From positions 7,639,001-7,703,000 of the forward strand of contig OX387202.1 in assembly GCA_947561715.1 (NCBI GenBank): a stretch of DNA of 64,000 nt, given 5' to 3'. Origin of the DNA: Ascidia mentula (Eukaryota; Chordata; Ascidiacea; Phlebobranchia; Ascidiidae). The position numbers and the translations under genes are program-made. Numbering within the stretch: position 1 is the first letter of the stretch; each line of letters starts with the position of its first letter. Below the pieces are notes generated by a model. That model made no database searches and was not told the origin of the DNA. It saw nothing but the letters and a program-made list of their open reading frames with translations. Positions 10,535 through 55,912 of the stretch are shown piece by piece.

Positions 10535-10616
10535 GGTAGCGTGGCCGAGCGGTCTAAGGCGCTGGTTTAAGGCACCAGTCATTTCGATGGCGTGGGTTCG
10601 AATCCCACCGCTGCCA
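10535..10616 (+). tRNA. tRNA-Leu (anticodon AAG)
   Basis: An 82-nt cloverleaf. The acceptor stem GGTAGCG pairs with CGCTGCC (one G-T wobble), with discriminator A at 10616. The D arm contains GTGGCCGAGCGGTCTAAGGC. The anticodon stem CTGGT/ACCAG encloses loop TTAAGGC, giving anticodon AAG, which decodes CUU leucine. The long variable arm is typical of a class II tRNA. The T arm is GTGGG-TTCGAAT-CCCAC. There is no intron, and the A and B boxes are intact. It is a single isolated copy in this window. Confidence 0.95.
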
Positions 10617-35526: not shown

Positions 35527-36025
35527 TCGCTCTAATAAAGGTATTGCAAAATGGAATACAGATTTATTGTAGTAATATTTTATCAAACACTATAATTTAT
35601 TATCCAACACACTATAGTAATGGAACATTTTGTGGTAAAATATTGATGTAGTTAATATTAGGGATGCACCTAAAGTTCGGTTTGCTGAATTTATTCCACT
35701 GAAACTAAGGTTTGTACAATTATTCGGTTCCGGCCGTACATTCCTACAAAATTGGGCTAAAACCAAAATTTTTTCACTGCATGTATGCTATGCGTATACA
35801 AATAATTCAACAGGTCTTAGTGTTGTTTAAATGTATGAAAGCTACACTTATGTTTGTTTTATTTTTTATTTATAACAGAAATGATGAAAAAAACTTTATG
35901 CAGTTGGTACAGCAGTCAAAGATATTTTGTAAGTGTTGATAAAAGGCTGGGTGACAGGAGTAGATCCCGTACATGTTTTAGTTAAATTTATGCATTTAAA
36001 GGGATGAACACCAAAATTAACTTCA
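35527..36025. other. Intergenic, upstream of thioredoxin
   Basis: It holds the thioredoxin promoter. TTAGGGATGCACCTAAAGTTCGG at about 35658 resembles one end of a hAT element (AGGGATGCACC), but no partner end was found. Confidence 0.35.
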
Positions 36026-36210
36026 AAAATTGAAATATTGGGATCTACCCAAAACTGCAGATGCAGGCCTAGCGATCACTGCAACTTATTTTATAATACT
36101 AAAAAAAGCAGTAGCTTTTTATACAGGATCAGCCTGGCTTATAAATCAGGAATATATATTTCGCCCCATGGGCATCTTCAGTTCCTTCAGTAAACACATT
36201 AAATGATATA

Positions 36211-36253
36211 AAAACGTCTTATTCAAATAGAATCATTTTGAATAAGACGTTTT
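36211..36253. repeat. Perfect 17-bp hairpin (copy 1)
   Basis: AAAACGTCTTATTCAAA, a 9-nt spacer, then its exact reverse complement TTTGAATAAGACGTTTT, abutting the MITE family A sequence at 36257. The same hairpin is at 42166-42208 in copy 2. Perhaps a remnant terminus of another element. Confidence 0.7.
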
Positions 36254-36256
36254 TGT

Positions 36257-36534
36257 CCTGTAAGGTCTCATCGGTGCCGCTGTTAACTGTGGCACTCGGC
36301 TAGCAGATTTCCACTTTGTGGTACCAAAACAACAGAGACAAACCACCGTCGGAGGCACTATGGCCAAACGACTGCTTGGTATCTGATAGTGTTACCGTCT
36401 CGGGTTCACCCAATTCATATATGTGCAAAAGAACTGTTAAAGCTACTAGAGTAAAAGCTAGTCTAGTGTCACAGACAATAGCTGCATTGACGAGATCTTA
36501 CAGAACAAAACAGTGTGTACAGACAATATCTGCA
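36257..36534. mobile_element. MITE family A copy in duplication copy 1
   Basis: It shares CCTGTAAGGTCTCAT, GATTTCCACTTTGTGGTACC, AACAACAGAGACAAACCACC and CACTATGGCCAAACG with the element at 3362-3596. A right terminal region (AGATCTTACAG...ACAGTGTGTACAGAC...TCTGCA) matches the inverted repeat in diverged form. The outermost left repeat is missing where the hairpin abuts. Confidence 0.6.
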
Positions 36535-37738
36535 ACTCTCCAAAATGTATTGTATGAACTTTATGTTATTATTTTAAATAATAGATTTATTTTTTCAACC
36601 AAGATTTATTTCAAAACAATTGCATATCTACCTACTACTACATGGTTACGATGCGTAACAAACTGCTGCAAAGCATTTCGAGATCTTTGTACATTCTTTT
36701 GTAGCACAACATTCCTCAATAACAACCTTGTGCAAGGTAACATTATGCTGTAGAAGTGTTTATGCTTGTAACTACAATAAACAACATTGTATGCTTTGAT
36801 ATTTCATGCAAAGCTATTATCATGTTGCTTTTTATTGAATTACTCCTGTCACTATACCATGCAACTCAGTAAAAACAACATTTGACTGCTAAAAAAAATA
36901 TATATATACAATATTTAACAATCCATTAAACGGCGATGTGTCTGATCATATCACTATTTTTAGCAAGAGTATATTATTACCACCATTACTCCACTTTTCA
37001 AAACTTCTTGCGATAATGATTGCATTACAAAATACGTAACATGTTGAATAAAATATAAAAAAAAAGAGCTGAACGGAGCCGGTATTTAAACCAGCCATCG
37101 TGGATGCGACGCCGCACTCGCACTGCACACATCTGATTAACATAGGGAAATACCCTATTAAGAAACCCGTTACTTCTGCAAGCGCACCTTTCCTTGGACA
37201 ATTTAAAAATCTCTCCCGTCAAGCATCGTTTTTATCAAACTTATCAAATATCGATATACCTTCTCCAGACACGTACGAAACTAAAATAAAATAAATCTAC
37301 TTTTAAAAATTTGCGAGTTTGTTGACTCAAAAACCACAACAAGACAACAATAAAATATTTTACTGGACACACACAAACAAAAATGTTCCCAAGTATAGTA
37401 AAATTACGTTTAAATTTGCAAAAGGTTTATTTGAATTTTCACATTGCCGAGTTAAGAACTATGGGAGTAAACGAAGTTATAAGAAATGCACTGCACAAAA
37501 AGACAATATTTTTTATACGTCTTACTTGAAGTTGCATATGAAAGAATGTTGATGGAATGTAATTTCACACACAGGGTACACTATGTCCTTTTAAAGTCCC
37601 AGAAAAATAAAGCGGTTAGCACAATTTAAACTGCTGATTAATAATAAATACAATGACAAACAACAAAGCAAAATTGTGAATAAACTACACAATTTATCCT
37701 AACAGTATTGCCACTTTTACACTTCTTCAAATAAGTCT

Positions 37739-40700
37739 TCACCTTGATTTCATCATGGATGCTATTGTAAAGTTTAAAATTCCTCCATGTGAATAATATG
37801 CAATTTCAACATCTGTGTCAAATCTTAGTTGCATGCTAAACGACTTTCCACATTCCGTCTACAAAAAAGTTCAACGAAAATTTTATCCAAGTTTAAAAAG
37901 TTGTTCATAAAAACAAAAACATACCTCAACCGTAACTTGCATATGTGGCTCAATATTTTTTGGCAGGATAACATTAAACTTTTCCAAACCAGACAGATTG
38001 TGCGTCATTGCAGATTCACCTTTATTAAATTGAAGAGGAATAATACCCATTCCCACCAAGTTAGAACGATGAATTCTCTCAAATGACTCAGCTAGTACAG
38101 CTTTGACACCCTGAATAATTTAAACATAAATCAAGTTAACAACACACTTTGTTTTATGAACTAAGAACAAATAATTTGGACAAGGTTCATTAAACATTAC
38201 TTTTTTACTTACTTAGGCAAGAATTAACAATATTATTCACATCAACAACATACAACAACTATTGTGCAGTTAAACACACATCAAATTTGTGTTTAGTTTC
38301 CAAAGTCAAATATTTTACCACTACACAAAAATCTTTTTTCACAATATGCTGTTAAGAAATTATTTGCTAACATTACTGTTGTGTTTTGTAAAAAGCTGTT
38401 TTGTACATTGCAATTACAAAAATTTGTTGTTCATACCAATATCCATGGCCCTTTTGCTGCCCAATCTCTACTGGAACCACTTCCATAATCCTTTCCAGCA
38501 ATGATAATAAGTGGTATGGTAGATTCTTGGTATTTCATGGCAGCATCAAAAACATCCATCTTGGAAAAAATATTGCTAAATAATATACACATAAAACAAT
38601 AAATATTCAATCCCGGTATTTTAATATGAATTTCACAGAAGTTTTTAAAAATAACCACCAGTTTAAATGTCTTGAATGTGTTGTAAACAAGTATTTTCAT
38701 CACGAGTAAACATGAATAATTTTATACATCAATTTTTCTATCACTAATCAGTAGGCAACCCAGAGCTTCTTAACTTTTAGAGAATACCATTTATGAAAAC
38801 TAAAGAGTGTAACAGACGAATAAAAAAAATTTTAGTTCTTGTATGAGGTTACCAAAAATTCATCATGTGCATTTGACATCAAAAAGCAAAAAATTTAAAA
38901 AAACTTAAAAGGGGTAACAAATAACATTGCCACCACTTGTAGCATCACATGACTAGGTGTGCAACAGGGTGCAGCAATTACAAGTTGTAAACCCCTCGAA
39001 AGTACATACATTGCTCCTTGTCAATGGTTGTTCCTATGTATGTAAAGCATTTCCAGAAATAGACGTTTCATATGATTGTCTTTCATCACTAGGACTCGGC
39101 CGTTCTTTGCTGCAACATCACAGCCAGGCTCTTTTAACCAAGTCTGTAACACTCTTTACCAATACCAATATATACTCCACCACAGGCCTTGCATGGAATC
39201 AAATTTCAATTCCTCTTGGGTACAATATTATCCTGTTTAGAGTTCTATGAGGCTTGGTTAGACCACAATGCCATTGTCCTACATCACAACAAGTGAAAGG
39301 TTACATCAAATTCACTTTAGAAAAGGGAAGTGGTGATAAATTACCCTTTTGGATAGAGTGGTTATTTATGAATGGTATGATCAGCACCAGTGTGTATCAG
39401 AAGCCAACGCACACCAATCGGTACATATTATTTAGGATACATTACATTTGATACAACACAAGACAGCGGTGGTGATGTCGCTGATAAAGCGAGCCAAGGC
39501 TCTGAGCAAAAGAGGTGAATTTCATCTGCGAAAGAATTTGCATTCGTCATGGATGATAAGAAGACGACAATAGAGCCACAAGAAGCAGAACCAACTACCG
39601 ACATGATCATTGTGTCGTATGTTCCTGTTTTAACAGACACGCTAAGCCTTATGATATTGGATTATTGCATTGCAGTCTACATTAAGCCTCATAGAACTCT
39701 GGGCAGGATGATATCGAACCATATCAAGGGAGTTGTGTATTTGATTCCGTGCACTGTAAGCGAGCATATCAAGGTGAAACCTTAAGAGTCCGTTAAAAGA
39801 GTACCGCCGCAACTCTGTAGCAAAAGAATGGCACTAATGAACCAATGTTGCCGGAGTCCCAGAGAAGGAGGACAACCATTCAGAATGTGTATTTCTGGAA
39901 ACGCCCCACATCCATAAGAATAAGCCTTGTGTTAATGACAAGTAGCAATGTATGTACTTTCCAGCGGTTTACAACAACTTGTTGCAATTGTTGCACTTTG
40001 TTACACACCTGGTCATGTGATGCTAGTAAGCGGTGCCAATGTTATTTGTTACCCCTTTTTCTTTTTCTGGTGTTTTCTTATGCTTTTTTTCAATTTTTTG
40101 TTATATGTGCATAATGAATTGTTGTTACGTAAAAGCCTCGTAGGATGGTAGTTGAAATGTTGGTTGTAATAAAAAACTCGTAACTTTATGCCAAAAGAAC
40201 AGTTTTTTTAAATTTACAATGCCTGGCAGAAAATATAACACTATGAATAAGGAATAATTGCCAACAAAGTGCTTTGGATGCTACATTTACACAGTGAAAA
40301 TTCACACCTCTTCCATATTTGGAATATGTATGGTTTTGGGTGCTTCTCTTCCCACAAGTTTGTTTTTAATTCGAATATTAGCAAATGTTCCCCGACTCAT
40401 GATGGCATCGTTGCCTCTTCTGCTTCCATATGAGTTGAAGTCCCGCGGTTTTATGCTAAACAGGAATTTTGGTTGGGACTACCCTACAAACAACTTCCTG
40501 AATCATGCAAGTGATATAAATCAGACAAGAAATTACCCTCTTTTTGAAAGGTATCTTGCAGCAGGAGACGATCGACTTATAGAACCAGCAGGAGAAATAT
40601 GGTCTGTTGTTACACTATCCCCAAGAAAAAGTAGTGCATGCATACCTTTGAGGTTGGTTTGTTCTTGCTTTTCCGTCTAAAACAAATCATGATGCTAATG

Positions 40701-41980
40701 ACTCACATGTGAAGTATCTAATTAAGTAGAAATAAGACTATCTGTACCTCAAACAGCATATTTGCATGTTGTACAATAACTTTGTTTCAGGTCATTTACA
40801 ACAATCACAGATAAATCACACAATATACTTTTGACACACACCATACCAATAACCATGTTTAAATCAGAAAGCTTTCCATCACTTACTAATGCCTTAAAAA
40901 ATGGGGGAGCTTTAATGTATGTTGAAGAAGGATTCCATTCATACAAAGTGCTGCTAGAACATTCAAGTGCATTCCAATTTGCGTTTCCAGTCTAGAAGTA
41001 AATATTTTGAGTATTGTTAGTAGTAAAGAAGTCATTGCTCACTAAAAAAAAATACAATGCACCAATGCATTTTTTACACAATAAAACACATTTCTAAACT
41101 ACCTTCTACTCAGTTTGAGTAACTTTGCACTGACGTTATGAGGCACTGTTTGTTTACATAGTGTTTTATAAAGTAAAAAAAAAACTTTTTAAAGTTAAAG
41201 GAAATTTTTGACACTGAAAGTAATCAAGGCACTTTCGTAGTAATAAAAAATTACTAGCGTTACACAACCAGAGTTGGGTTGTGGAGTTGGGGTTGACTGG
41301 GTTGCAAGGATTTAACTGTTGTTAATATGGCTGTTGACTCAGGTAATGCAAAATTTGTAGTGATGTTGCAAAACAAAATTACTCAGAGAATAAGTGACAT
41401 TTCAACTGCAACCACTTAACTGAAGTTACCCTCACTTCTAAACAAAAGGAGTGAGGGTTAAACAAAAATATTTTCACAGAGTTGGGATTAGAGGCCCAGA
41501 CTGAGGCTTACAAATGTTACATAGAACTATTAATATTATGAAGTATTATCAAAAATTGTATTATAACCTTTGATCGCCAAAAACCAGTAGTTTTCTTGCC
41601 ATTAGTGTTTATTTAATTGTTACCTTGATTTTTCCGTAAACTTCTTTAAACATGTTGGGAAGAACAGACTTCTTTTCCATTTCTTGAATATCTAGTCTTG
41701 AAGGCCATATATCTCTCAGAAAAACTGGTTTACCTTCCTGTCCAAATCCTAAATATTTTGTTCTTGTTTAGAATGCCTAACTACCTCAACAAACAAAAGT
41801 TCAAACAACTACAAATCTTGTTATTTTTGTACAATCCATTATTTCATTAAAAAAAAATTATACTCAACCTAAAGGTTCTTTTTCAAAGTCAATAAGAACT
41901 GTTCCTGCCAAAGCATATGCAACAACCAACATAGGTGAAGCTAGGTAGTTGGCTCTAGTTGACTGATGGATTCTGCCCTC
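37739..41980 (-). pseudogene. ACO1: Orphan 3' block of cytosolic aconitase/IRP1 (exons 14-20 plus truncated exon 13)
   Basis: Exon copies, 5' to 3': truncated 13 at 41980-41869, then 41748-41624, 40991-40887, 40676-40537, 40455-40308, 38559-38437, 38110-37925 and 37858-37739 (stop). No base difference from the intact gene's exons was seen, so every frame and splice site is open. Exon 13 has lost its first 45 bp and its acceptor at the duplication breakpoint, and no exons 1-12 or promoter precede it. It can make protein only as a read-through extension of the upstream full copy: splicing from the main exon 13 into this exon 14 would even restore the same reading frame. It is most simply a non-functional by-product of a very recent duplication, or an assembly duplicate. 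Confidence 0.85.
38908..40058 (+). mobile_element. Penelope-like retroelement relic with long inverted flanks (copy 1)
   Basis: On the plus strand 39254-39451 encodes [15 protein letters not shown]...[18 protein letters not shown], which matches the end of Penelope-like reverse transcriptase (LPFLD...TSVYRKPTHTDRY). 39549-39785 encodes [14 protein letters not shown]...KGVVYLIPC, the linker before the GIY-YIG endonuclease. Stops and frameshifts break it. It is bounded by inverted repeats of roughly 100 bp, starting AGGGGTAACAAATAACATTG at 38910 and its complement near 40056. Inserted in the intron between exons 18 and 17 of the orphan aconitase block, antisense to the gene. Confidence 0.65.
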
Positions 41981-42165
41981 AAAATTGAAATATTGGGATC
42001 TACCCAAAACTGCAGATGCAGGCCTAGCGATCACTGCAACTTATTTTATAATACTAAAAAAAGCAGTAGCTTTTTATACAGGATCAGCCTGGCTTATAAA
42101 TCAGGAATATATATTTCGCCCCATGGACATCTTCAGTTCCTTCAGTAAACACATTAAATGATATA

Positions 42166-42208
42166 AAAACGTCTTATTCAAATAGAATCATTTTGAATAA
42201 GACGTTTT
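42166..42208. repeat. Perfect 17-bp hairpin (copy 2)
   Basis: Duplicate of the hairpin at 36211-36253. Confidence 0.7.
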
Positions 42209-42489
42209 TGTCCTGTAAGGTCTCATCGGTGCCGCTGTTAACTGTGGCACTCGGCTAGCAGATTTCCACTTTGTGGTACCAAAACAACAGAGACAAACCA
42301 CCGTCGGAGGCACTATGGCCAAACGACTGCTTGGTATCTGATAGTGTTACCGTCTCGGGTTCACCCAATTTATATATGTGCAAAAGAACCGTTAAAGCTA
42401 CTAGAGTAAAAGCTAGTCTAGTGTCACAGACAATAGCTGCATTGACGAGATCTTACAGAACAAAACAGTGTGTACAGACAATATCTGCA
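42209..42489. mobile_element. MITE family A copy in duplication copy 2
   Basis: Duplicate of 36257-36534. It carries two of the three substitutions that separate the two duplication copies (42371 and 42390). Confidence 0.6.
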
Positions 42490-43693
42490 ACTCTCCAAAA
42501 TGTATTGTATGAACTTTATGTTATTATTTTAAATAATAGATTTATTTTTTCAACCAAGATTTATTTCAAAACAATTGCATATCTACCTACTACTACATGG
42601 TTACGATGCGTAACAAACTGCTGCAAAGCATTTCGAGATCTTTGTACATTCTTTTGTAGCACAACATTCCTCAATAACAACCTTGTGCAAGGTAACATTA
42701 TGCTGTAGAAGTGTTTATGCTTGTAACTACAATAAACAACATTGTATGCTTTGATATTTCATGCAAAGCTATTATCATGTTGCTTTTTATTGAATTACTC
42801 CTGTCACTATACCATGCAACTCAGTAAAAACAACATTTGACTGCTAAAAAAAATATATATATACAATATTTAACAATCCATTAAACGGCGATGTGTCTGA
42901 TCATATCACTATTTTTAGCAAGAGTATATTATTACCACCATTACTCCACTTTTCAAAACTTCTTGCGATAATGATTGCATTACAAAATACGTAACATGTT
43001 GAATAAAATATAAAAAAAAAGAGCTGAACGGAGCCGGTATTTAAACCAGCCATCGTGGATGCGACGCCGCACTCGCACTGCACACATCTGATTAACATAG
43101 GGAAATACCCTATTAAGAAACCCGTTACTTCTGCAAGCGCACCTTTCCTTGGACAATTTAAAAATCTCTCCCGTCAAGCATCGTTTTTATCAAACTTATC
43201 AAATATCGATATACCTTCTCCAGACACGTACGAAACTAAAATAAAATAAATCTACTTTTAAAAATTTGCGAGTTTGTTGACTCAAAAACCACAACAAGAC
43301 AACAATAAAATATTTTACTGGACACACACAAACAAAAATGTTCCCAAGTATAGTAAAATTACGTTTAAATTTGCAAAAGGTTTATTTGAATTTTCACATT
43401 GCCGAGTTAAGAACTATGGGAGTAAACGAAGTTATAAGAAATGCACTGCACAAAAAGACAATATTTTTTATACGTCTTACTTGAAGTTGCATATGAAAGA
43501 ATGTTGATGGAATGTAATTTCACACACAGGGTACACTATGTCCTTTTAAAGTCCCAGAAAAATAAAGCGGTTAGCACAATTTAAACTGCTGATTAATAAT
43601 AAATACAATGACAAACAACAAAGCAAAATTGTGAATAAACTACACAATTTATCCTAACAGTATTGCCACTTTTACACTTCTTCAAATAAGTCT

Positions 43694-46600
43694 TCACCTT
43701 GATTTCATCATGGATGCTATTGTAAAGTTTAAAATTCCTCCATGTGAATAATATGCAATTTCAACATCTGTGTCAAATCTTAGTTGCATGCTAAACGACT
43801 TTCCACATTCCGTCTACAAAAAAGTTCAACGAAAATTTTATCCAAGTTTAAAAAGTTGTTCATAAAAACAAAAACATACCTCAACCGTAACTTGCATATG
43901 TGGCTCAATATTTTTTGGCAGGATAACATTAAACTTTTCCAAACCAGACAGATTGTGCGTCATTGCAGATTCACCTTTATTAAATTGAAGAGGAATAATA
44001 CCCATTCCCACCAAGTTAGAACGATGAATTCTCTCAAATGACTCAGCTAGTACAGCTTTGACACCCTGAATAATTTAAACATAAATCAAGTTAACAACAC
44101 ACTTTGTTTTATGAACTAAGAACAAATAATTTGGACAAGGTTCATTAAACATTACTTTTTTACTTACTTAGGCAAGAATTAACAATATTATTCACATCAA
44201 CAACATACAACAACTATTGTGCAGTTAAACACACATCAAATTTGTGTTTAGTTTCCAAAGTCAAATATTTTACCACTACACAAAAATCTTTTTTCACAAT
44301 ATGCTGTTAAGAAATTATTTGCTAACATTACTGTTGTGTTTTGTAAAAAGCTGTTTTGTACATTGCAATTACAAAAATTTGTTGTTCATACCAATATCCA
44401 TGGCCCTTTTGCTGCCCAATCTCTACTGGAACCACTTCCATAATCCTTTCCAGCAATGATAATAAGTGGTATGGTAGATTCTTGGTATTTCATGGCAGCA
44501 TCAAAAACATCCATCTTGGAAAAAATATTGCTAAATAATATACACATAAAACAATAAATATTCAATCCCGGTATTTTAATATGAATTTCACAGAAGTTTT
44601 TAAAAATAACCACCAGTTTAAATGTCTTGAATGTGTTGTAAACAAGTATTTTCATCACGAGTAAACATGAATAATTTTATACATCAATTTTTCTATCACT
44701 AATCAGTAGGCAACCCAGAGCTTCTTAACTTTTAGAGAATACCATTTATGAAAACTAAAGAGTGTAACAGACGAATAAAAAAAATTTTAGTTCTTGTATG
44801 AGGTTACCAAAAATTCATCATGTGCATTTGACATCAAAAAGCAAAAAATTTAAAAAAACTTAAAAGGGGTAACAAATAACATTGCCACCACTTGTAGCAT
44901 CACATGACTAGGTGTGCAACAGGGTGCAGCAATTACAAGTTGTAAACCCCTCGAAAGTACATACATTGCTCCTTGTCAATGGTTGTTCCTATGTATGTAA
45001 AGCATTTCCAGAAATAGACGTTTCATATGATTGTCTTTCATCACTAGGACTCGGCCGTTCTTTGCTGCAACATCACAGCCAGGCTCTTTTAACCAAGTCT
45101 GTAACACTCTTTACCAATACCAATATATACTCCACCACAGGCCTTGCATGGAATCAAATTTCAATTCCTCTTGGGTACAATATTATCCTGTTTAGAGTTC
45201 TATGAGGCTTGGTTAGACCACAATGCCATTGTCCTACATCACAACAAGTGAAAGGTTACATCAAATTCACTTTAGAAAAGGGAAGTGGTGATAAATTACC
45301 CTTTTGGATAGAGTGGTTATTTATGAATGGTATGATCAGCACCAGTGTGTATCAGAAGCCAACGCACACCAATCGGTACATATTATTTAGGATACATTAC
45401 ATTTGATACAACACAAGACAGCGGTGGTGATGTCGCTGATAAAGCGAGCCAAGGCTCTGAGCAAAAGAGGTGAATTTCATCTGCGAAAGAATTTGCATTC
45501 GTCATGGATGATAAGAAGACGACAATAGAGCCACAAGAAGCAGAACCAACTACCGACATGATCATTGTGTCGTATGTTCCTGTTTTAACAGACACGCTAA
45601 GCCTTATGATATTGGATTATTGCATTGCAGTCTACATTAAGCCTCATAGAACTCTGGGCAGGATGATATCGAACCATATCAAGGGAGTTGTGTATTTGAT
45701 TCCGTGCACTGTAAGCGAGCATATCAAGGTGAAACCTTAAGAGTCCGTTAAAAGAGTACCGCCGCAACTCTGTAGCAAAAGAATGGCACTAATGAACCAA
45801 TGTTGCCGGAGTCCCAGAGAAGGAGGACAACCATTCAGAATGTGTATTTCTGGAAACGCCCCACATCCATAAGAATAAGCCTTGTGTTAATGACAAGTAG
45901 CAATGTATGTACTTTCCAGCGGTTTACAACAACTTGTTGCAATTGTTGCACTTTGTTACACACCTGGTCATGTGATGCTAGTAAGCGGTGCCAATGTTAT
46001 TTGTTACCCCTTTTTCTTTTTCTGGTGTTTTCTTATGCTTTTTTTCAATTTTTTGTTATATGTGCATAATGAATTGTTGTTACGTAAAAGCCTCGTAGGA
46101 TGGTAGTTGAAATGTTGGTTGTAATAAAAAACTCGTAACTTTATGCCAAAAGAACAGTTTTTTTAAATTTACAATGCCTGGCAGAAAATATAACACTATG
46201 AATAAGGAATAATTGCCAACAAAGTGCTTTGGATGCTACATTTACACAGTGAAAATTCACACCTCTTCCATATTTGGAATATGTATGGTTTTGGGTGCTT
46301 CTCTTCCCACAAGTTTGTTTTTAATTCGAATATTAGCAAATGTTCCCCGACTCATGATGGCATCGTTGCCTCTTCTGCTTCCATATGAGTTGAAGTCCCG
46401 CGGTTTTATGCTAAACAGGAATTTTGGTTGGGACTACCCTACAAACAACTTCCTGAATCATGCAAGTGATATAAATCAGACAAGAAATTACCCTCTTTTT
46501 GAAAGGTATCTTGCAGCAGGAGACGATCGACTTATAGAACCAGCAGGAGAAATATGGTCTGTTGTTACACTATCCCCAAGAAAAAGTAGTGCATGCATAC

Positions 46601-49600
46601 CTTTGAGGTTGGTTTGTTCTTGCTTTTCCGTCTAAAACAAATCATGATGCTAATGACTCACATGTGAAGTATCTAATTAAGTAGAAATAAGACTATCTGT
46701 ACCTCAAACAGCATATTTGCATGTTGTACAATAACTTTGTTTCAGGTCATTTACAACAATCACAGATAAATCACACAATATACTTTTGACACACACCATA
46801 CCAATAACCATGTTTAAATCAGAAAGCTTTCCATCACTTACTAATGCCTTAAAAAATGGGGGAGCTTTAATGTATGTTGAAGAAGGATTCCATTCATACA
46901 AAGTGCTGCTAGAACATTCAAGTGCATTCCAATTTGCGTTTCCAGTCTAGAAGTAAATATTTTGAGTATTGTTAGTAGTAAAGAAGTCATTGCTCACTAA
47001 AAAAAAATACAATGCACCAATGCATTTTTTACACAATAAAACACATTTCTAAACTACCTTCTACTCAGTTTGAGTAACTTTGCACTGACGTTATGAGGCA
47101 CTGTTTGTTTACATAGTGTTTTATAAAGTAAAAAAAAAACTTTTTAAAGTTAAAGGAAATTTTTGACACTGAAAGTAATCAAGGCACTTTCGTAGTAATA
47201 AAAAATTACTAGCGTTACACAACCAGAGTTGGGTTGTGGAGTTGGGGTTGACTGGGTTGCAAGGATTTAACTGTTGTTAATATGGCTGTTGACTCAGGTA
47301 ATGCAAAATTTGTAGTGATGTTGCAAAACAAAATTACTCAGAGAATAAGTGACATTTCAACTGCAACCACTTAACTGAAGTTACCCTCACTTCTAAACAA
47401 AAGGAGTGAGGGTTAAACAAAAATATTTTCACAGAGTTGGGATTAGAGGCCCAGACTGAGGCTTACAAATGTTACATAGAACTATTAATATTATGAAGTA
47501 TTATCAAAAATTGTATTATAACCTTTGATCGCCAAAAACCAGTAGTTTTCTTGCCATTAGTGTTTATTTAATTGTTACCTTGATTTTTCCGTAAACTTCT
47601 TTAAACATGTTGGGAAGAACAGACTTCTTTTCCATTTCTTGAATATCTAGTCTTGAAGGCCATATATCTCTCAGAAAAACTGGTTTACCTTCCTGTCCAA
47701 ATCCTAAATATTTTGTTCTTGTTTAGAATGCCTAACTACCTCAACAAACAAAAGTTCAAACAACTACAAATCTTGTTATTTTTGTACAATCCATTATTTC
47801 ATTAAAAAAAAATTATACTCAACCTAAAGGTTCTTTTTCAAAGTCAATAAGAACTGTTCCTGCCAAAGCATATGCAACAACCAACATAGGTGAAGCTAGG
47901 TAGTTGGCTCTAGTTGACTGATGGATTCTGCCCTCAAAATTTCGATTTCCAGATAATACACCACAAGTAACCAAATCACCCTGAATAGGTATTGATAAAA
48001 AATAATTACTTCCATGTTTGTAAAAACCTTTGGTACTTTAAGTGTTTTGTGTTCAATATATATTACAGCTTTTAATACAGCGGTTCCCAACTGGTGGCAC
48101 ACAAAAACTTAATATTATTGGATGAAACTTGAACCCATTAAAATTAAGGTTGGGAATCACTGCTTAAACAACATGAGCATGTGTATGCAAAACAGACATA
48201 CTCCAGGGAAAGACCACAGTTCAACTCCATAAAGTTATATATATATAAGCAGAACAATAAATTTAAGATAATTTAATATACCTCTGATATTGCAGCATCC
48301 ACTTCTTCAGGCAATGGTCCACTGTTTCCTATGCATGTCATGCACCCATACCCCACAACATCAAAACTGTGTAAAAACAATAACATCATTATCTACGACT
48401 TTAAAAATGTTGACAGGTTTTTCCCCTTTGTACAAGGGATAAGTTAAATTACAATGCAAGTGACAGTCTCTTCAAAGTTTTTTTATTACAGTGGAATATG
48501 AAAAAAAGGTAATGACATCATAAGCATGATGAAAGTAAAAGAGATAAACTATTTTTTGGGTAAAATATTGCCTAACATTTTTCAATTGAATTGACAGAAG
48601 TTTTATAAGTACGGTTTGGTTAGTTGTTATTAAGATTATAAATAAAAATAATTAAATGCACTTACAACAACAACAAAAAAGCATAGTTTAGCACCAGTAG
48701 CATTTAAGTTTGTATACATCTACTGCAAGGGTGCAAAACCTGCGTATGTAGGGCCTTATAAAATTGTTAAATATAATATTTCATTACACTTATAGACATA
48801 AGTAAGTTACACTTATAGACATAAGTAAATTACACTAATAGACATAAGTAAATGCGAAGTTTTAGGCATGAACTCACTGGCAGCCGTTAGTGAAATAAAG
48901 TCTGTGTGATGTGGCTGGCATTAATAAAAAGGTTGTGCACCCCTGATCTACTGATTCAATAAATCAGGTTTTATTATTCAAATATAACAGTCAACAGTGA
49001 TCACACAAACATGATTAAAATGTGAGCTACCCAAGCTTTTGCAGAAATGCAAGTACACCACTGTCTTTCAGGTAGTATGTGACAACACCGCTGCCTGGTG
49101 ATAAACTGGTTTTAATGTAAGGATCAACATTTAATCCTGCATAGACAGCATTCCTGGCAAGTAAACCTGAAAGAAAAAAATATTTCTGGAGCAAGATAAC
49201 AGAAATAATGTAAAATCTTCGCTATCTTCATACATTGCTCAATAGCTTGTATGAAATTTAAACCAAAATTTTGATCAATCAAAGTGACGATCCAGTTTTA
49301 TAGTCTTGAAATCTTAGTACATTGTTTTACAAACGTTTATTTACAAAGTTGGCCAGGAATCCGCGATAAGTATTATATTTAAGTGAAGAAACAAATCATG
49401 GTCACTTTTAGGTTATTTAATACAAAACAAAATTAGGCACAACAAAAAGGAGCCATAAACAGTTCACCAACAAAAACAGCAAGCTAACAATAGTTTTTGC
49501 CTTGCGTTTTTATGGTATATACCCATGGGCGTATCCAGGGGGGGGGTCCGAGGGGTCCGGACCCCCCCCCTTTTGTGAAATATTTTGGTCTTTTTTGATA

Positions 49601-52600
49601 ACTAAACAAACGCCACGGTATTTTTTTGTCAAAGTCCGCATGAAAAACAGAAATTTTCTTTGATGTTGACCTAAAAACCGCATCGTGCTTGCATTCGCCA
49701 TTGTTTCCAAACAGGGAGCATCGTTACCGAACACTTGGCATTGTTACGAAACAAGTGTCATTTTTCGTCAGTTTACGGACGAAACGTCATTTTTCACGTT
49801 GTAATGACAAGCGGTTTACTTGCGTGAAAGTTAATTAGTTTAGTTGTTAAACTTTCCATAGCGTTACACAATTGCCCAAGCCAGAAAGTCACCGTGTATG
49901 TGACGATTGACGCAAACACCGGCTTTCGTATTTTGCGATTCTCGCCCACAAATAACCTTAGTTTATACCTAAAAATCGGGGAATACCCTAAAAAATTTGG
50001 ACCCCCCCTTTAAAAATTCCTGGATACGCCCCTGTATATACCTCATCATCTCATCAAGTTATTCCATGAAAGTTTTAAGGTTTTGCAAAACCCAGATTGG
50101 AAATAACTACTATACCACATATTCCTGTCTAAAATAATGTAATCCCCCTATTTTTGTAGATACCTGCCCCAAGCATAACAGTTGGATTGCTTGTGTTTGT
50201 ACATGATGTGATGGCTGCTATGACAACTGAGCCATGTTTCAACTTATATGATTTTCCACAATATGAAAAGTCTACAGATGTCTTTGACTTTTCTTCTGGA
50301 ATACCAAACCCTTTAAATGAAATCTTAACAAAAACAATTTTAGTGAACAACAGATCATAAAATAACAAGTAATGGAACAAACCTTGTTGGTTAAACATGC
50401 TTTGAAGTCTTCTTTCATATCAGAAACTGCAACACGATCATGGGGTCTTTTAGGGCCACTGAGAGAAGGCACTATGCTTCCCAAGTCAAGGTTAAAAACC
50501 TGCAAATAAAATACTTTTAGCTCTCAGATTCTTAAACACCACCTCAATGTCTACAAAGTTGTAATTTTTGATCTGTTTAGTGAAAATTGTACCTCTTTAA
50601 TGACTGTATGGTATGCATTAAAAATGCAGCTATGTAGGGAAAAGGTGTCCACATTATTTGAAAATATTTCCATTAATATATGTGCAAAAAAAGCCATAAT
50701 ATTGCAAAGCTGCAGACAGGGTGTGTACACGCACTGTTTCGACCTGTAAGGTCTCATCAGTGCAGCTGTTGAGTGGCACTGTGCTAGCTGTCATTAAAAT
50801 ACTAAAATGAATTATATTGTCATGAATAACCTCATGATAAGACTATGTGTAGTATAAGCAAAATGCAAGTTCAACAAAACTCATAAATAGTATTATTTTT
50901 GTGAACTGAGCCAACAATGCTTTAGCAAGCTAATTGTGTTTGTCAGACATAGTCAAACATTCCCAACTGAAAAATGTTTAATATGTGTAAACCAATGTTT
51001 CGAGAAAAAATACCTGCAATTTGATTTGATTTTATGAGCAGAATATTTCAGACATAGAACCCTTGTCAGGTGAAATAGTGTAAATTTAAGTGGGAAAAAT
51101 ATAGCTGCAACTATAAGGTACTTGATTATAATGGATAAACTATTTTTACAAATAGATTTACAGGCAATTTTGATCATACAAAAGTCTGACTGCAGAAGTT
51201 GTTTCTGGGAATTCAAATTATGATTTTATTACTTTTAGTCAAATAATGTTAATTTTGTAAACATACTTCAGTAAACTTGGGGTCTTGAGATTCATCACTG
51301 TAGTCTCTAAACAGCTTTGTTGCTCTTAAATACTTCTCAACAATTTGTATTTTCTTCTGATCTCTGGCTAAAATAATAAATGCAATTACATAAAATTTAC
51401 ATAAATCGGCGGATGTACATTTTTCTCACCAGTTTGTTTGAGATATTCCAAGGAAATTTTGTCCACAGGGAAAAACCCTACAGTGGCACCATATTCAGGA
51501 CACATGTTTGATATTGTAGCTCTATCAGCAATCGAAAGCTTAGTAACACCAGGACCAAAAAATTCAACAAATTTTCCAACCACACCAATTTGACGCAGAT
51601 GCTGCAATATAAAACCTCTGAAGGTAAAGGTTTCTGTGCAGCAACAAATTTGTTGTAAGTTATACATATGGCAAAGTTTGCAATTTACTCCCCCTAAAAT
51701 ACTGAAACAAAAAGCCCCAATTATAATTTAATAAAACCACAGAAAACAATTGGGCACATCTTCAGCAATAGCAAGAAATACTACATTTTGTTGGATTTAC
51801 CTTAGTAACAGTTAAAACAACATCTGTACTTGTTGCCAAAGGATTTATTTCACCAGTAAGTTTGTAACCAACTACTTTAGGCAGTATCATGGATATTGCT
51901 TGCCCAAGCATGACAGCTTCTGCCTCTATTCCTCCCACACCTAAAGTATAGGTTGTGTTTGCTTTTTATAAAGTATGGCTGTGTAATGTAGCCAACTAGC
52001 GATGGGCAATATAGAATAATACACTATTCTAGAACATTCTAGAATAGTTAAATCGAATCCAGAATACCGAATCCTATTCTGTTTTTGTTTTAGCTTGAGC
52101 ACTGAAGCACAATAAACATAAAAGGTTTTTTACACTCCAACAACAAAGCACAATCAAAGAAATAAATTTATTGCACTGTAATATATTTAGGTCCCCCTGT
52201 GTGCTTGCCTGTCAAGCGACAACGTAATTTTGTGGCTGACAAACCTGCACGTCACAACCATAGCAGAAGATTGACGAAAAAAGATACGCACCGTATTTAC
52301 TCTATAGTAAGCCGCGGCTTTCAAAGTTGTTTAAGCTACCGCTTGTGATGCTTACAATCGAGGGCGACTTATATTATTTAATGTCAAGCCGATAATTTGT
52401 CTGTGGCTCTGAGTTTTAATGAAATTCACCTTTAACTAGCTCAGATTTGTTGACAATTATTGTAGGTCACCAAAGTTTGCCTCATAACATCTACGTGCAT
52501 CTTGCATTTGAGGGCGGCTAATATTAATTTTTTACCACCGTCGCATGCGCAAATACGGAAAGTTACCACACATAGAAGATAAATAACGAAACCTATTATT

Positions 52601-55600
52601 CGGTTTGAAGACAATTTGGACTCCGGTTTCCCTATTGTAAATTGCCCATCTCTATGGCCAATGCAAACATAGTGTTGCAATTTAAATTTTTTTAACTTCT
52701 CACCAGAAAAGTACACATATAAAACAAAGTACAAATACTAACTTTATGAATAAAAAATACAAAAAATACTCTACAGTTCTTGAAACTCAACAGAAAAATA
52801 TCCTGTATGGAAAGAAAATTGATTTTTTATCAAAAACATGTTGTTGAAAAATTGTACAATATTTATTTCAATTTGCTGTAAGTTGCATTGTTAAACTGAC
52901 ATTTCTTGAAATCAATGGGGATTTTGAGTTCTTACCCCATCCTAGTATGCCCAATCCATTAATCATGGTTGTATGAGAATCAGTTCCTATAAGTGTGTCG
53001 GGAAATAAGTAATCCCCGTCGTCAAACACCACTCGAGCTAAATACTCCAAATTAACCTGATGAACAATCCCAGATCCAGGTGGTAAAATGTTTAGGTTAT
53101 CAAAGGCTTGGGCTCCCCACTGCAAAATAAGCATTTTTACTAGTTTTGTACTAAAAATCTATCAAGCAATGTCACAAAAAACTAGTATAATTATGAGCAA
53201 GGCAAATAATAACAAAAATTTTATTTTCACTTTAACTACTAGTATTTTTGTTTAAATAAAGTTTTTCTACTAGCAAATGGAACTAGTCTTCTATTATCTA
53301 TTTATTGTCAGTGTAGTGTGCAAATTGAACAGTGCAATATTTTATTTTCTACTTAAATACGAAGAGGGTTCCTCCCTGTTGGATATATTTAATCGCTTTT
53401 TAATATTGTCTATGGATTTCTGTTAATGTTAGTTAGGAGTAAATGTTGAGCTTTGCTTTTGTTTGTTTCTATTCTTTTTAGTACAAAACCTGTCTATGCC
53501 ATTAAGGCAAAACCAATATTTCTGCAGAGAAGCTGATCATCAATCACTTTTTGTGAGTAATTTTGGACAAATTCAAACAACCACTAAATTTACACAGCTC
53601 TATTTATGTATAATGTTACATTACATGAAGAATATCTTTACCCTTGTAAAGAAATGTTTACTTTACAATAGTACAAAAGTTACCAAAAGTTGGTATATAA
53701 CATTTACTTTTAAAAATGCAAATCGTTCTTGGTTTCTTTCAAATTCCCTTTGTAGGTTCTTTGAAGCAGCATCTTCACTGTAAATAAAAGGCAAAAAAGT
53801 GTCATATGAGCTGGGGCAATGGGTATTATTCATATCCACTGTTTAATCATATATATATTTTTAAGTTAGAAGATAAATTTTTCACTTTCTCGGGATACCG
53901 TATTTTACGGACCATAAAGCGCACCCGATTATAAGGCGCACTGTCAATAAATTGCTTTGATTAGTTTTTTGTTCATACATAAGGCGCAACGGGCTATAGA
54001 ACGCAACGTATTTTAAGGAGTATGGGTTACCGTATAAAGCTGTATATATAAGCAGTATTCGCATTATACAATTATGAGGAGCAAGAGAAATAAAAGTTTA
54101 CTTGTTAGGTAATCAATGTAAAGCAAGTCACAATAGTAAAATGAGCAAAAGAAAAAATGAGCCTAGTGAATATCACAGTTGCTAGTTGCTTTTACCGTAG
54201 TTTATTGTGTAAGATGGTGGTTTATTTATATTATAATAGTATCGGTACTGGTTTTGAGTGTAGGCAATAAGGCACTACTTGATCCATACATTAGGCGCTC
54301 CGGCTTATAAGGCGCACGATCAATTTATGAGGAAAAAAAAGGATTTAAATTGCGCCTTATGGTCCGTAAAATACGGTAATATATATATTACGGATGTAAA
54401 AATACAAACAACAAATCAGAATTTACAATTGCAGATTGTTGCAATTAGAAAAAGTACATCAAAATTTATTTGCATGGGTAACAAACATACGACTCCTTTA
54501 ACTGATCACCATCTCAAATAAACATCAAAATGTTACTTAAACCTGCACAACCAGGATTTTAGTAAGAGTGATGCGGTGTGAATATGACTCAATTTAAAGA
54601 CACAATCATAACCTAAGGCCAAAAATTATCGAAGCACATCTGAGCCCGTTTCACACCTTTCACAGCGCACTGCACATAGGTTGAAAAACCTCGACTCAAA
54701 CCAAAGAAACACCAAGGGCTAAAACAAGTCAATACAAATAAACTTATTGTTTTATTGTTGCCTCAACGAATTTCAGAGGGTGTTTAATTGCAATTGCTCT
54801 ACTTGAATTAGATGATTGTTGCTTAAACACAAAACATTGCAACAGCTGCATTTTAAATTTTCATTTTCTATCATTTAACAAAACAAATCACCACTATCAC
54901 ATAATTTCACACAAACCTTCTGGAGAAGTCAACTTGTACAGAGTGATCAATAACAAGATCAACAGGACAAACTGGATTTATCATTTCTGGTTTCCCCCCA
55001 AGCTCTGCAACAGCATTTCTCATTCCAGCAAAATCAACAACAGCAGGAACACCCCTGTTAAAGATATGTTTAGCAAGAAATTTGCAGTAGTGGGATGTGT
55101 GCATTGGGTGAAATCACATAAATAACATTCCTTAATGAGCCAACATGATTTAAAGTTTGCCCATTAGGCTGCCCCAAGTAATTGCAGGTTAAAACTTATG
55201 CAGTTGTTCTGAACTGGAGGTCACCAAAGTATTATCAGGGGTTTTGTAGTATTACTTTGATATTTTAAGATTATGAAAAACATTTGCTGTTTACTGCTTT
55301 GGCATTAAATTTACTGTTTACCAGGTGGTAATGTATGTAAATGCAGCATTTGTGTAGAATTGCCATGTAACAGAAAGATTGCTATCTAAAATTCTCTGCG
55401 GTAAATCACATGTGAAACATTGGAGATGGTAATGAAAGTCTACGGCAAACATACCACAGGTTTTTTGAAATATGTTATGTCTGTCCAGGATTTTGAATTA
55501 ATTGGAAATAGGGGACTTACGTAAAATCTTGCAAAACAACTCTAGCTGGCTTGAACTTTATTTCAACTTCTTTTAACGAAGTTTTTTTCCAATTAATAGT

Positions 55601-55912
55601 TTTGTCAATATCATCCTCCTTGATATGGAAATTGTCACAGTTTCTGATCACAGACTCCACCAAAACACGAATTGAGTAAGGTAATTCATCTAGCAAAACA
55701 AGACCTTGCTTCAATTCAAAATTGTTATCGTCAAGTTTGTATAAATCTTTTTGATAATTTCACATATTCTCCTTCAAACTTGATATTTGTATATGCATAA
55801 TACAAAGTAAATTCAGTTACAAATTCTCACCAAGAACATCTTTTTCCACAGCTTGAGTTATGTCGATGTACTTGAATGTTTTTCCATCTACTTCCATTAA
55901 ATTTATGGACAT
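43694..55912 (-). CDS. ACO1: Cytosolic aconitase / iron regulatory protein 1, 20 exons, 904 aa
   Basis: A bifunctional [4Fe-4S] aconitase that, when the cluster is lost, binds iron-responsive elements in mRNA. Exons: 55912-55831, 55746-55521, 55054-54917, 53777-53708, 53119-52936, 51940-51801, 51601-51430, 51367-51267, 50499-50383, 50323-50164, 49166-49031, 48366-48282, 47980-47824, 47703-47579, 46946-46842, 46631-46492, 46410-46263, 44514-44392, 44065-43880 and 43813-43694. Total 2715 nt with all phases matching; human IRP1 is 889 aa. Visible motifs: [72 protein letters not shown], the cluster Cys in SCTNTSNP and the pair in [42 protein letters not shown] and [13 protein letters not shown]. 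All three cluster cysteines and the substrate/RNA-binding arginines of the family are present. There is no IRP2-specific insert and no mitochondrial presequence. Exons 14-20 and part of 13 lie in the tandem duplication. The introns are loaded with transposons. Confidence 0.95.
44863..46013 (+). mobile_element. Penelope-like retroelement relic with long inverted flanks (copy 2)
   Basis: Identical in all inspected parts to 38908-40058, shifted by 5,955 bp. It lies in the intron between exons 17 and 18 of the intact aconitase gene. The retroelement therefore inserted and decayed before the duplication. Confidence 0.65.
48078..48162. mobile_element. Short hAT-like MITE in aconitase intron 12
   Basis: CAGCGGTTCCCAAC at the left and GTTGGGAATCACTG at the right form hAT-type terminal inverted repeats. 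The 85-bp unit has no coding capacity. The flanking 8 bp (TTTTAATA and CTTAAACA) match only in part. Confidence 0.5.
48726..48945. mobile_element. hAT-like MITE with perfect 8-bp target duplication
   Basis: Perfect 8-bp direct repeat ATCTACTG at 48718-48725 and 48946-48953. The ends are CAAGGGTGCAAAACCT and AGGTTGTGCACCCCTG, inverted repeats of hAT type. The 220-bp body holds three tandem units of about 24 bp (TTACACTTATAGACATAAG with variants) at about 48785-48852. It lies in the intron between exons 11 and 12 of the aconitase gene. Confidence 0.85.
49524..50034. mobile_element. Non-autonomous hAT-like element, 511 bp, with 8-bp target duplication
   Basis: Perfect 8-bp repeat TATATACC at 49516-49523 and 50035-50042. 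The ends are CATGGGCGTATCCAGG and CCTGGATACGCCCCTG, inverted repeats of the CAGGGGCGTA hAT type, followed at both ends by a run of G/C (GGGGGGGTCC and GGACCCCCCC). No transposase. It lies in the intron between exons 10 and 11 of the aconitase gene. Its higher GC content and CpG use differ from the surrounding intron, which suggests a recent insertion. Confidence 0.85.
50705..50790. mobile_element. MITE family A, solo end
   Basis: GCAGACAGGGTGTGTACACG and ACCTGTAAGGTCTCATC match the left end of the element at 3362-3596 nearly exactly; the other end is absent. It lies in the intron between exons 8 and 9 of the aconitase gene. Confidence 0.65.
51997..52654. mobile_element. Non-autonomous hAT-like element, about 658 bp
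   Basis: The left end TAGCGATGGGCAATATAGAA and the right end, complement TAGAGATGGGCAATTTACAA, are hAT-type inverted repeats. The flanking 8 bp, TAGCCAAC and TGGCCAAT, are a diverged target duplication. The interior has palindromic TTCTAGAA runs (ATTCTAGAACATTCTAGAAT) and no transposase. It lies in the intron between exons 5 and 6 of the aconitase gene. Confidence 0.7.
53896..54378. mobile_element. Inverted-repeat element with TACCGTATTTTACGG ends
   Basis: The left end TACCGTATTTTACGGACCAT and the right end ATGGTCCGTAAAATACGGTA are exact reverse complements; GCGCCTTAT/ATAAGGCGC words recur several times inside near both ends. TA at each border fits a TA target duplication. No transposase. 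It lies in the intron between exons 3 and 4 of the aconitase gene. Confidence 0.8.

Follow-up and report, generated by a model that had tools for sequence, protein, structure and literature searches.

Microhomology-mediated duplications, attributed to MMBIR/FoSTeS or to alternative end joining, are known from human CNVs, and mutations occur near the junctions of such variants. The tandem duplication described here lies in a window of 64,000 nucleotides, the whole stretch of DNA that was analysed, from the ascidian Ascidia mentula. It resembles the human cases in its single head-to-tail junction, its short microhomology, and the lack of long homology at its breakpoints, one of which falls in repeat DNA. 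It differs from them in being apparently natural, in occurring in an ascidian, in having no templated insertion at the junction, and in being described here from an assembly.

The repeat at this breakpoint invites comparison with a second system. Dinoflagellate retrogenes carry a DNA-encoded remnant of the spliced leader (SL) at the 5′ end of the retroposed copies (PMC12014239), and the Ciona SL is given as ATTCTATTTGAATAAG (PMC7986045). The breakpoint element contains an exact 16-nt match to this leader, and an SL remnant in the DNA at the 5′ end of a retroposed copy is common to both systems. In contrast to the dinoflagellate retrogenes, the tagged RNA here would be that of a short, high-copy retroelement, the leader is of the Ciona type, and the element happens to form a duplication breakpoint. 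Moreover, the SL in the window is fused to AC... and lacks the GT donor of an SL RNA gene. The Ciona type of the leader is itself indirect support for an ascidian source.

If real, the duplication is an unusually young duplication of part of a gene in a chordate, resolved at the level of single bases, with a coding exon and the end of a retroelement as its breakpoints and, beside the junction, a few changes that can be polarised. Unless it is an assembly error, it is a neat but ordinary type of mutation, and the SL-tagged element may outweigh it in importance.

Anatomy of the duplication and its breakpoints

The features of the duplicated gene and of the junction are as follows.

36026 to 41980, minus strand (that of the gene): unit copy 1, distal and orphan; partial IRP1 exon, remaining 3′ exons, stop, 3′ flank and retroelement
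41981 to 47935, minus strand: copy 2 of the unit, proximal; 3′ portion of the apparently complete IRP1 gene, 3′ flank and junction-truncated retroelement
41975 to 41987, no strand: novel junction; exon GCCCTC, then AAAATT, then retroelement interior G(AAATATTGGG)
36026 to 36031, no strand: left-breakpoint copy of the microhomology AAAATT, lying within the retroelement 6 bp from its end; repeated at 41981 to 41986 and 47936 to 47941
43694 to 55684, minus strand: IRP1 coding exons, 18 exons chained, stop at 43694
47824 to 47980, minus strand: exon cut by the right breakpoint; encodes an 11-residue motif, AAAATT being its NF codon pair
36020 to 36254, minus strand: SL-tagged putative retroelement; 3′ end complete, reading TGAAGT on the minus strand; SL at 36218 to 36233
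41981 to 42209, minus strand: the same element in copy 2, cut short by 6 bp where it meets the junction; SL at 42173 to 42188
38848 to 40250 (also in copy 2), no strand: older fold-back repeat in the IRP1 3′ part; matches elsewhere 65–83% identical

The two copies, each of 5,955 bp, align without gaps at an offset of 5955 and differ at 3 of 5,955 positions, all in the first ~410 bp, just as the initial annotation had described them. Self-BLAST pairs 36026–41986 with 41981–47941 at 99.95% identity over 5,961 bp, the shared AAAATT being counted in, and its sole other matches at E ≤ 1e-20 come from a fold-back repeat within the unit. The window contains no N, which means that no scaffold gap lies at the junction, and a search of the 195.8-Mb assembly found two full copies of the unit and no third.

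By its sequence the duplicated gene is of the IRP1/cytosolic aconitase type, and the original call of aconitase/IRP1 was right. The exon translations, once joined, score 1196 bits against 2b3x (IRP1, the nearest solved structure), 1039 against 6vcd (IRP2), and 172 against mitochondrial aconitase. The gene product has the 11-residue motif and the motif TSCTNTSNP in common with AcnA/IRP1, and 434 of 855 alignment columns are identical to E. coli AcnA, gaps counted. The exon chain, built from hand-given blocks, is missing the first exon and one or more short stretches, which were not found.

Three points go beyond the initial annotation, namely that the gene runs along the minus strand, that the right breakpoint is exonic, and that a retroelement lies at the left one. 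Given this orientation, the gene has its 3′ end at the left end of the unit. The exon fragment of copy 1 has no 3′ splice site of its own, and its stop lies at 37739 (by offset from copy 2); the 5′ part of the gene and copy 2 together seem to make up a complete, retained IRP1, with copy 1 as an orphan downstream. Introns and repeats are kept in both copies, the introns being identical, which indicates copying at the DNA level, and processed retroduplication was rejected on these grounds.

The microhomology is exactly 6 bp, as first reported, and self-BLAST detects no homology between the two breakpoints beyond it; among 200,000 random position pairs from 30–50 kb of the window, a match of at least 6 bp had a chance of 0.003. 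The left breakpoint falls 6 bp inside the end of a high-copy retroelement, which is what NAHR between repeat copies would call for, but the right breakpoint falls in a coding exon, where there is no such element, and homology by self-BLAST is at most 6 bp. NAHR, which needs homologous repeats at both breakpoints, was therefore rejected as highly improbable, and the earlier view that this was not homologous exchange between repeats is borne out. The terminal hexamer of the element, missing from the junction copy, is present in 26 of the 26 other loci examined (21 exact, 5 with 1–2 substitutions), as expected if the join fell inside a pre-existing element.

Differences between the copies and the origin of the duplication

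The three differences, and the repeat family that served to polarise two of them, are located as follows.

36172 (copy 1, G) and 42127 (copy 2, A), no strand: difference 1, unit position +147 (first base = 1)
36416 (copy 1, C) and 42371 (copy 2, T), no strand: difference 2, unit position +391
36435 (copy 1, T) and 42390 (copy 2, C), no strand: difference 3, unit position +410
36251 to 36553 (also in copy 2), no strand: second repeat family, source of polarity for differences 2 and 3; matches 69–97% identical, the longer ones 69–89%

There are thus 3 differences in 410 bp (0.7%) against 0 in 5,545 bp (95% upper bound 0.054%). Under uniform placement, all three would fall in the first 410 of 5,955 bp with P = 3.3e-4, or 6.5e-4 for either end, both values being post hoc. 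The clustering, earlier called odd, now has two concrete candidate explanations: error-prone synthesis near the junction, or a crossover or phase switch within copy 1. Natural Ciona populations are given a heterozygosity of 1.1–1.2% (PMC6836712); at this rate, which may not be that of Ascidia mentula, 66–71 differences would be expected, with P(≤3) < 1e-23, and the divergence is indeed far below the allelic level, as had been proposed. With the same rate as yardstick, haplotypic false duplication was discarded, there being no allele-level divergence along the whole copy, no N, and no third copy found.

Polarity was taken from repeat paralogues, an indirect outgroup, after positions in the first four columns of each match had been dropped. 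At difference 1, G stands in 36 of 37 repeat alignments from 26 loci, with a gap in the remaining one (both fold-back arms are included, and loci L003 and L004 overlap), and on this comparison G is firmly ancestral and the A of copy 2 derived. At difference 2, the 18 repeat alignments (L061 and L062 being duplicates) have C in 14, T in 3 and G in 1, so that C is probably ancestral and the T of copy 2 derived. For difference 3, T occurs in 2 of 2 alignments, which are a duplicated pair, poorly aligned there, and amount to one independent copy; T is possibly, on this weak count, ancestral and C in copy 2 derived. Taken together, the comparison suggests that the derived base sits in copy 2 each time, firmly at difference 1, probably at difference 2 and weakly at difference 3.

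We infer, tentatively, a real and very recent tandem duplication, produced by one microhomology template switch of the MMBIR/FoSTeS type or by an equivalent alternative end joining, with the three changes as repair errors. While the chromosome still had one copy, the 3′ end of a plus strand, with CCCTCAAAATT as its last bases, would have stalled or been broken within the IRP1 exon (at what is now ~47941). It would then have used AAAATT to anneal 5,955 bp farther back, at the end of the retroelement (now 36026). Synthesis would then have re-copied the 5,955 bp before continuing onward; alternatively, repair of a break by alternative end joining would give the same product. Because the whole 3′ part and its flank would be re-copied, the gene beside the 5′ exons would stay complete and the extra copy would become the downstream orphan. 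The single junction, the short, above-chance microhomology and the breakpoints without long homology are those of a microhomology-mediated duplication. The three derived changes would reflect error-prone synthesis over the first few hundred bases of the newly started copy. Since the derived bases are all assigned to copy 2, which would be the newly made side (3 of 3: one firm, one probable, one weak), the changes sit 147–410 bp past the new junction, which fits error-prone synthesis after a template switch. Against junction error, an allelic origin would also place all three in copy 2 at about 1 in 8, a chance too large to neglect, and three substitutions in 410 bp with zero indels are dense for repair synthesis.

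All three differences are transitions and none is an indel; transitions are frequent in ordinary polymorphism too, an observation that counts against junction error.

Almost as probable as junction error is a crossover, or a change of haplotype, within copy 1. The duplication would again be real and recent, and the differences would be allelic, the sequence passing from the unduplicated to the duplicated haplotype between 36435 and 41980, either through meiotic crossover or conversion in the ancestry or through a phase switch by the assembler; heterozygous structural variants are natural sites of phase switches. Such a passage, which we consider possible, accounts jointly for the absence of differences in 5,545 bp and for 0.7% at one end, of the order of the 1.1–1.2% given for Ciona (PMC6836712). 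However, it predicts derived bases on both sides, and copy 2 is assigned the derived base at 3 of 3 sites (about 1 in 8), an argument weakened by the less certain polarity of sites 2 and 3. An alternative haplotig of the locus was not found in the assembly either, although none would be left in one that had been purged. One unduplicated allele would separate error-prone synthesis from allelic exchange.

The initial annotation had left a choice between a very recent event, a gene-converted pair and an artefact. The real, recent event is favoured by the gap-free junction, the three distinguishing sites and the failure to find a third copy. That the locus is single-copy, with a chimeric molecule, an assembly or library product, linking exon and retroelement end through AAAATT so that the loop was walked twice, is unlikely: divergence near zero and one end in a high-copy repeat would suit it, and polymerase chimaeras too arise at short homologies, but the junction is free of N, the copies are told apart at three sites, their divergence is not allele-like, and an overlap assembler should need at least one read containing the junction before it makes a join over 6 bp. 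Gene conversion fares worse. Conversion between tandem copies does tend to leave differences at unit ends, and an older duplication could have been homogenised except for 410 bp at one end, yet this would need one or more tracts over 5.5 kb without a residual difference, and the other end is identical right up to the breakpoint; we regard it as very improbable.

A reading in which the retroelement itself caused the duplication seems a long shot. Here, broken DNA in the IRP1 exon would pair by AAAATT with the element RNA, 6 nt short of the 3′ end of that RNA, and prime reverse transcription, the new cDNA would invade the nearby resident element, 5.9 kb would be copied by break-induced replication, and its error-prone start would leave the three mutations on the junction side.

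The spliced leader in the breakpoint element and in the assembly

Copies of the breakpoint element have a constant 3′ end and variable 5′ ends, and many look fold-back. A MITE with terminal inverted repeats was considered and dropped, since these ends, together with an SL at a splice boundary, favour a retroelement, which fits better. Its boundary reads SL|ACGTTTTT in the window, compared with GCTGTTTTTCAG|ACGTTTTT in 20 of 29 rows from relatives, 5 of the others being SL-type and 4 different; rows were counted by eye with both fold-back arms included, the 4 rows of the overlapping loci L003 and L004 represent 2 places, and 4 of the 26 element loci gave no row. The SL in the window element replaces the sequence 5′ of the 3′ splice site, exactly at AG|. 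Because it sits exactly at the splice-acceptor position of most relatives, the element looks like a retrocopied trans-spliced RNA. Among the partial records returned by a literature search on spliced leaders or hammerheads together with retroelements, no title concerned ascidian SL-tagged retroelements.

At gathering thresholds, Rfam gave two tRNA matches in the window and nothing in the six loci submitted with it; on 36000–36300 at E ≤ 10 it gave 13 weak matches, none near a gathering score. A CTGAWGA...GAAA hairpin near the 5′ end of the element resembles a hammerhead core; with one base too many and nothing from Rfam behind it, it is not claimed as one. None of ten ORFs at 28.7–37.6 kb had a Pfam match over the curated cut-off, two lying under it. 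No target site duplication was seen at the window copy; by eye, an 11-bp candidate, CAAACAACATT, is present at L077 and its duplicate L078.

The Ciona leader occurs in the assembly as 2,157 exact copies, 1,830 of them followed by GT and 327 not. A pattern for an SL RNA with the Ciona Sm motif within 4–20 nt had 0 matches in the assembly, which argues against a simple Ciona-like SL RNA, and, set against the 1,830 SL copies with GT, this suggests that the body of the SL RNA differs from that of Ciona. Among the 30 non-GT copies examined, 8 have a common upstream flank and may be internal to a larger repeat. If most of the 327 resemble the 30 examined, many trans-spliced RNAs would have been retrocopied, leaving a DNA record of trans-splicing.

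The duplicated unit and the IRP1 gene

The two copies of the 5,955-bp unit (copy 1, 36026-41980; copy 2, 41981-47935) align without gaps at a 5,955-bp offset, and their sole differences, here numbered 1 to 3, are G/A at 36172, C/T at 36416, and T/C at 36435 (copy 1/copy 2). Self-BLAST of the window gives 99.95% identity across 5,961 bp, the 6 bp beyond the unit being the common AAAATT, and its remaining matches (E up to 1e-20) represent a fold-back repeat within the unit. The near-identical repeat of the aconitase/IRP1 3' half with AAAATT microhomology, described in the initial annotation, is thus borne out, as is the clustering of differences at one end, with all three in the first 410 bp of the unit (P = 3.3e-4 under uniform placement, a post hoc figure). 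Between random position pairs, matches of at least 6 bp have a frequency of 0.003.

When 36300-41980 was searched against the assembly (40 of 721 candidates scored), two full-length matches were obtained, both within the window, and no haplotig carrying a single-copy allele was found. The other matches, among 141 listed in all, were confined to 38848-40250, a fold-back repeat that is old, at 65-83% identity. It appears unlikely that the duplication is an artefact.

Regarding the gene, tblastn with E. coli AcnA locates the aconitase exons in two minus-strand runs, one between 55684 and 43703 and the other between 41986 and 37748. The joined exon translations score 1196 bits with IRP1 (2b3x), 1039 with IRP2, and 172 with mitochondrial aconitase. 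The chained coding sequence is a guided model, built from 18 hand-given blocks and lacking the first exon as well as one or more short stretches, which were not located; it stays open as far as the stop codon at 43694. Aligned with AcnA, it has the same residue in 434 of 855 columns, gaps counted. Exon 47824-47980 contains the right breakpoint (47935/47936) in a loop-coding part, and AAAATT corresponds to an N-F codon pair of that exon. This position indicates that the complete IRP1 gene consists of the 5' part joined to copy 2, with copy 1 as an orphan 3' part, starting mid-exon and lacking the splice acceptor of that exon.

The left breakpoint and the origin of the duplication

At the left breakpoint lies a high-copy retroelement, present twice in the window:

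36020-36254, minus strand, left copy of the element
41981-42209, minus strand, junction copy, truncated at the novel junction (41980/41981)

In the 195.8-Mb assembly, a 401-bp probe across the junction gave at least 52 matches (40 of 354 candidates were scored). Among the matches listed, 49 are external to the window, and for 32 of them the alignment starts, by eye, at base 182 of the probe, where the unit begins. We examined 26 element loci, six returned by this search and twenty fetched afterwards, some being mutual duplicates as judged by their flanks (L077/L078, L004/L084, and L087/L090). All 26 have a conserved hexamer directly outside AAAATT, either as exact ACTTCA (21 loci) or with one or two substitutions (five). 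The hexamer is present in the left copy of the window (36020-36025) and absent from the junction copy, which argues that the duplication cut a pre-existing element 6 bp short of its end. The 3' end of the element is constant, its 5' ends are variable, and the fold-back form is frequent. A second repeat family, more diverged and with inverted halves, adjoins it at 36251-36553.

The junction would be accounted for by a template switch through microhomology, leading from the exon to the end of the element. Recombination between repeats is excluded because the breakpoints are without homology, in agreement with the non-homologous origin first proposed, and processed retroduplication because the introns are kept. 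At the Ciona heterozygosity of 1.1-1.2%, as given in an excerpt of PMC6836712, 66-71 differences would be expected between the copies versus the three observed; allele-level divergence is therefore excluded, and the claim that the copies diverge far less than two haplotypes holds, provided that this species matches Ciona in its polymorphism. As a type of event the duplication is ordinary; it is unusually young, and its structure is cleanly resolved.

For difference 1, element-copy alignments (26 loci, both fold-back arms counted) carry G in 36 of 37 cases and a gap in one, indicating that the A of copy 2 is derived. Difference 2 sits in the second repeat family (20 regions fetched, 74 matches listed), where 18 alignments give C 14 times, T three times, and G once, so that the T of copy 2 is probably derived. 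For difference 3, both covering loci, duplicates of each other, have T, a weak hint of a change on copy 2. All three changes may thus be assigned to copy 2, firmly for the first, probably for the second, and weakly for the third; they lie downstream of the novel junction at distances of 147 to 410 bp. If synthesis was error-prone at the start of the new copy, all differences should be derived in copy 2, which matches this assignment. The cluster could also mark a passage, inside copy 1, from an unduplicated to a duplicated haplotype, either in ancestry or in the assembly; this, however, predicts derived states on either side, and the pattern found would be 1 in 8 by our own arithmetic. We rank error-prone synthesis slightly above haplotype passage, and a mutation cluster near the junction is testable.

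A spliced leader on the element

The element at the edge of the duplication, tagged with a spliced leader (SL), is a more unusual lead than the duplication itself. On the minus strand, the window element copy reads ATTCTATTTGAATAAG directly followed by ACGTTTTTATATC, and the first 16 nt of this reading are exactly the Ciona SL as quoted in an excerpt of PMC7986045. The window holds it in both element copies:

36218-36233, minus strand, exact Ciona SL fused to AC..., left copy
42173-42188, minus strand, exact Ciona SL fused to AC..., junction copy

At the same point in other loci, 20 of 29 rows have GCTGTTTTTCAG directly followed by ACGTTTTT (also written TTTTTCAG), five are of the SL type, and four are of other types; these counts were made by eye, and the rows include dependent ones, such as those of the overlapping L003 and L004. 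The sequence GCTGTTTTTCAG with ACGTTTTT looks like a 3' splice site, and since the SL stands where most rows show it, the window copy resembles a reverse-transcribed, i.e., retrocopied, trans-spliced RNA. A putative 11-bp target site duplication is visible by eye at one SL copy, L077 (duplicate, L078), and none was seen at the window copy.

In the assembly, SL followed by AC occurs at 39 sites and the reversed pattern at none. The 30 loci returned, two being the window's own, comprise several element families by eye, and eight of them have a common upstream flank, with the SL within a larger repeat (L027, L028, L029, L037, L038, L040, L045, and L046); L040 has two tandem SLs, as if the leader sequence had been added twice. 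The SL alone has 2,157 sites, 1,830 followed by GT and 327 not, the inspected part of the latter being the 30 SL+AC loci. Many of the listed SL+GT sites lie in 719-720-bp tandem arrays on contig C1 (L096-L125; C1:15.24-15.32 Mb of assembly G000), arranged as would be expected for SL RNA genes. The Ciona Sm motif AGCTTTGG has no site in the assembly 4-20 nt after SL+GT, which counts against a simple Ciona-like picture.

A hairpin motif, CTGAWGA-T-stem-GAAA (36158-36181, minus strand), is found repeatedly, close to the 5' end, in several families tagged with the SL, shows compensating stem changes across SL loci by eye, and contains difference 1 (36172). It is similar to a hammerhead core but carries one extra base and has no Rfam match. 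Elsewhere, the window contains two tRNA matches:

10535-10616, plus strand, tRNA gene with a long variable region, 56 bits
14442-14514, plus strand, weak tRNA-like match, 32 bits
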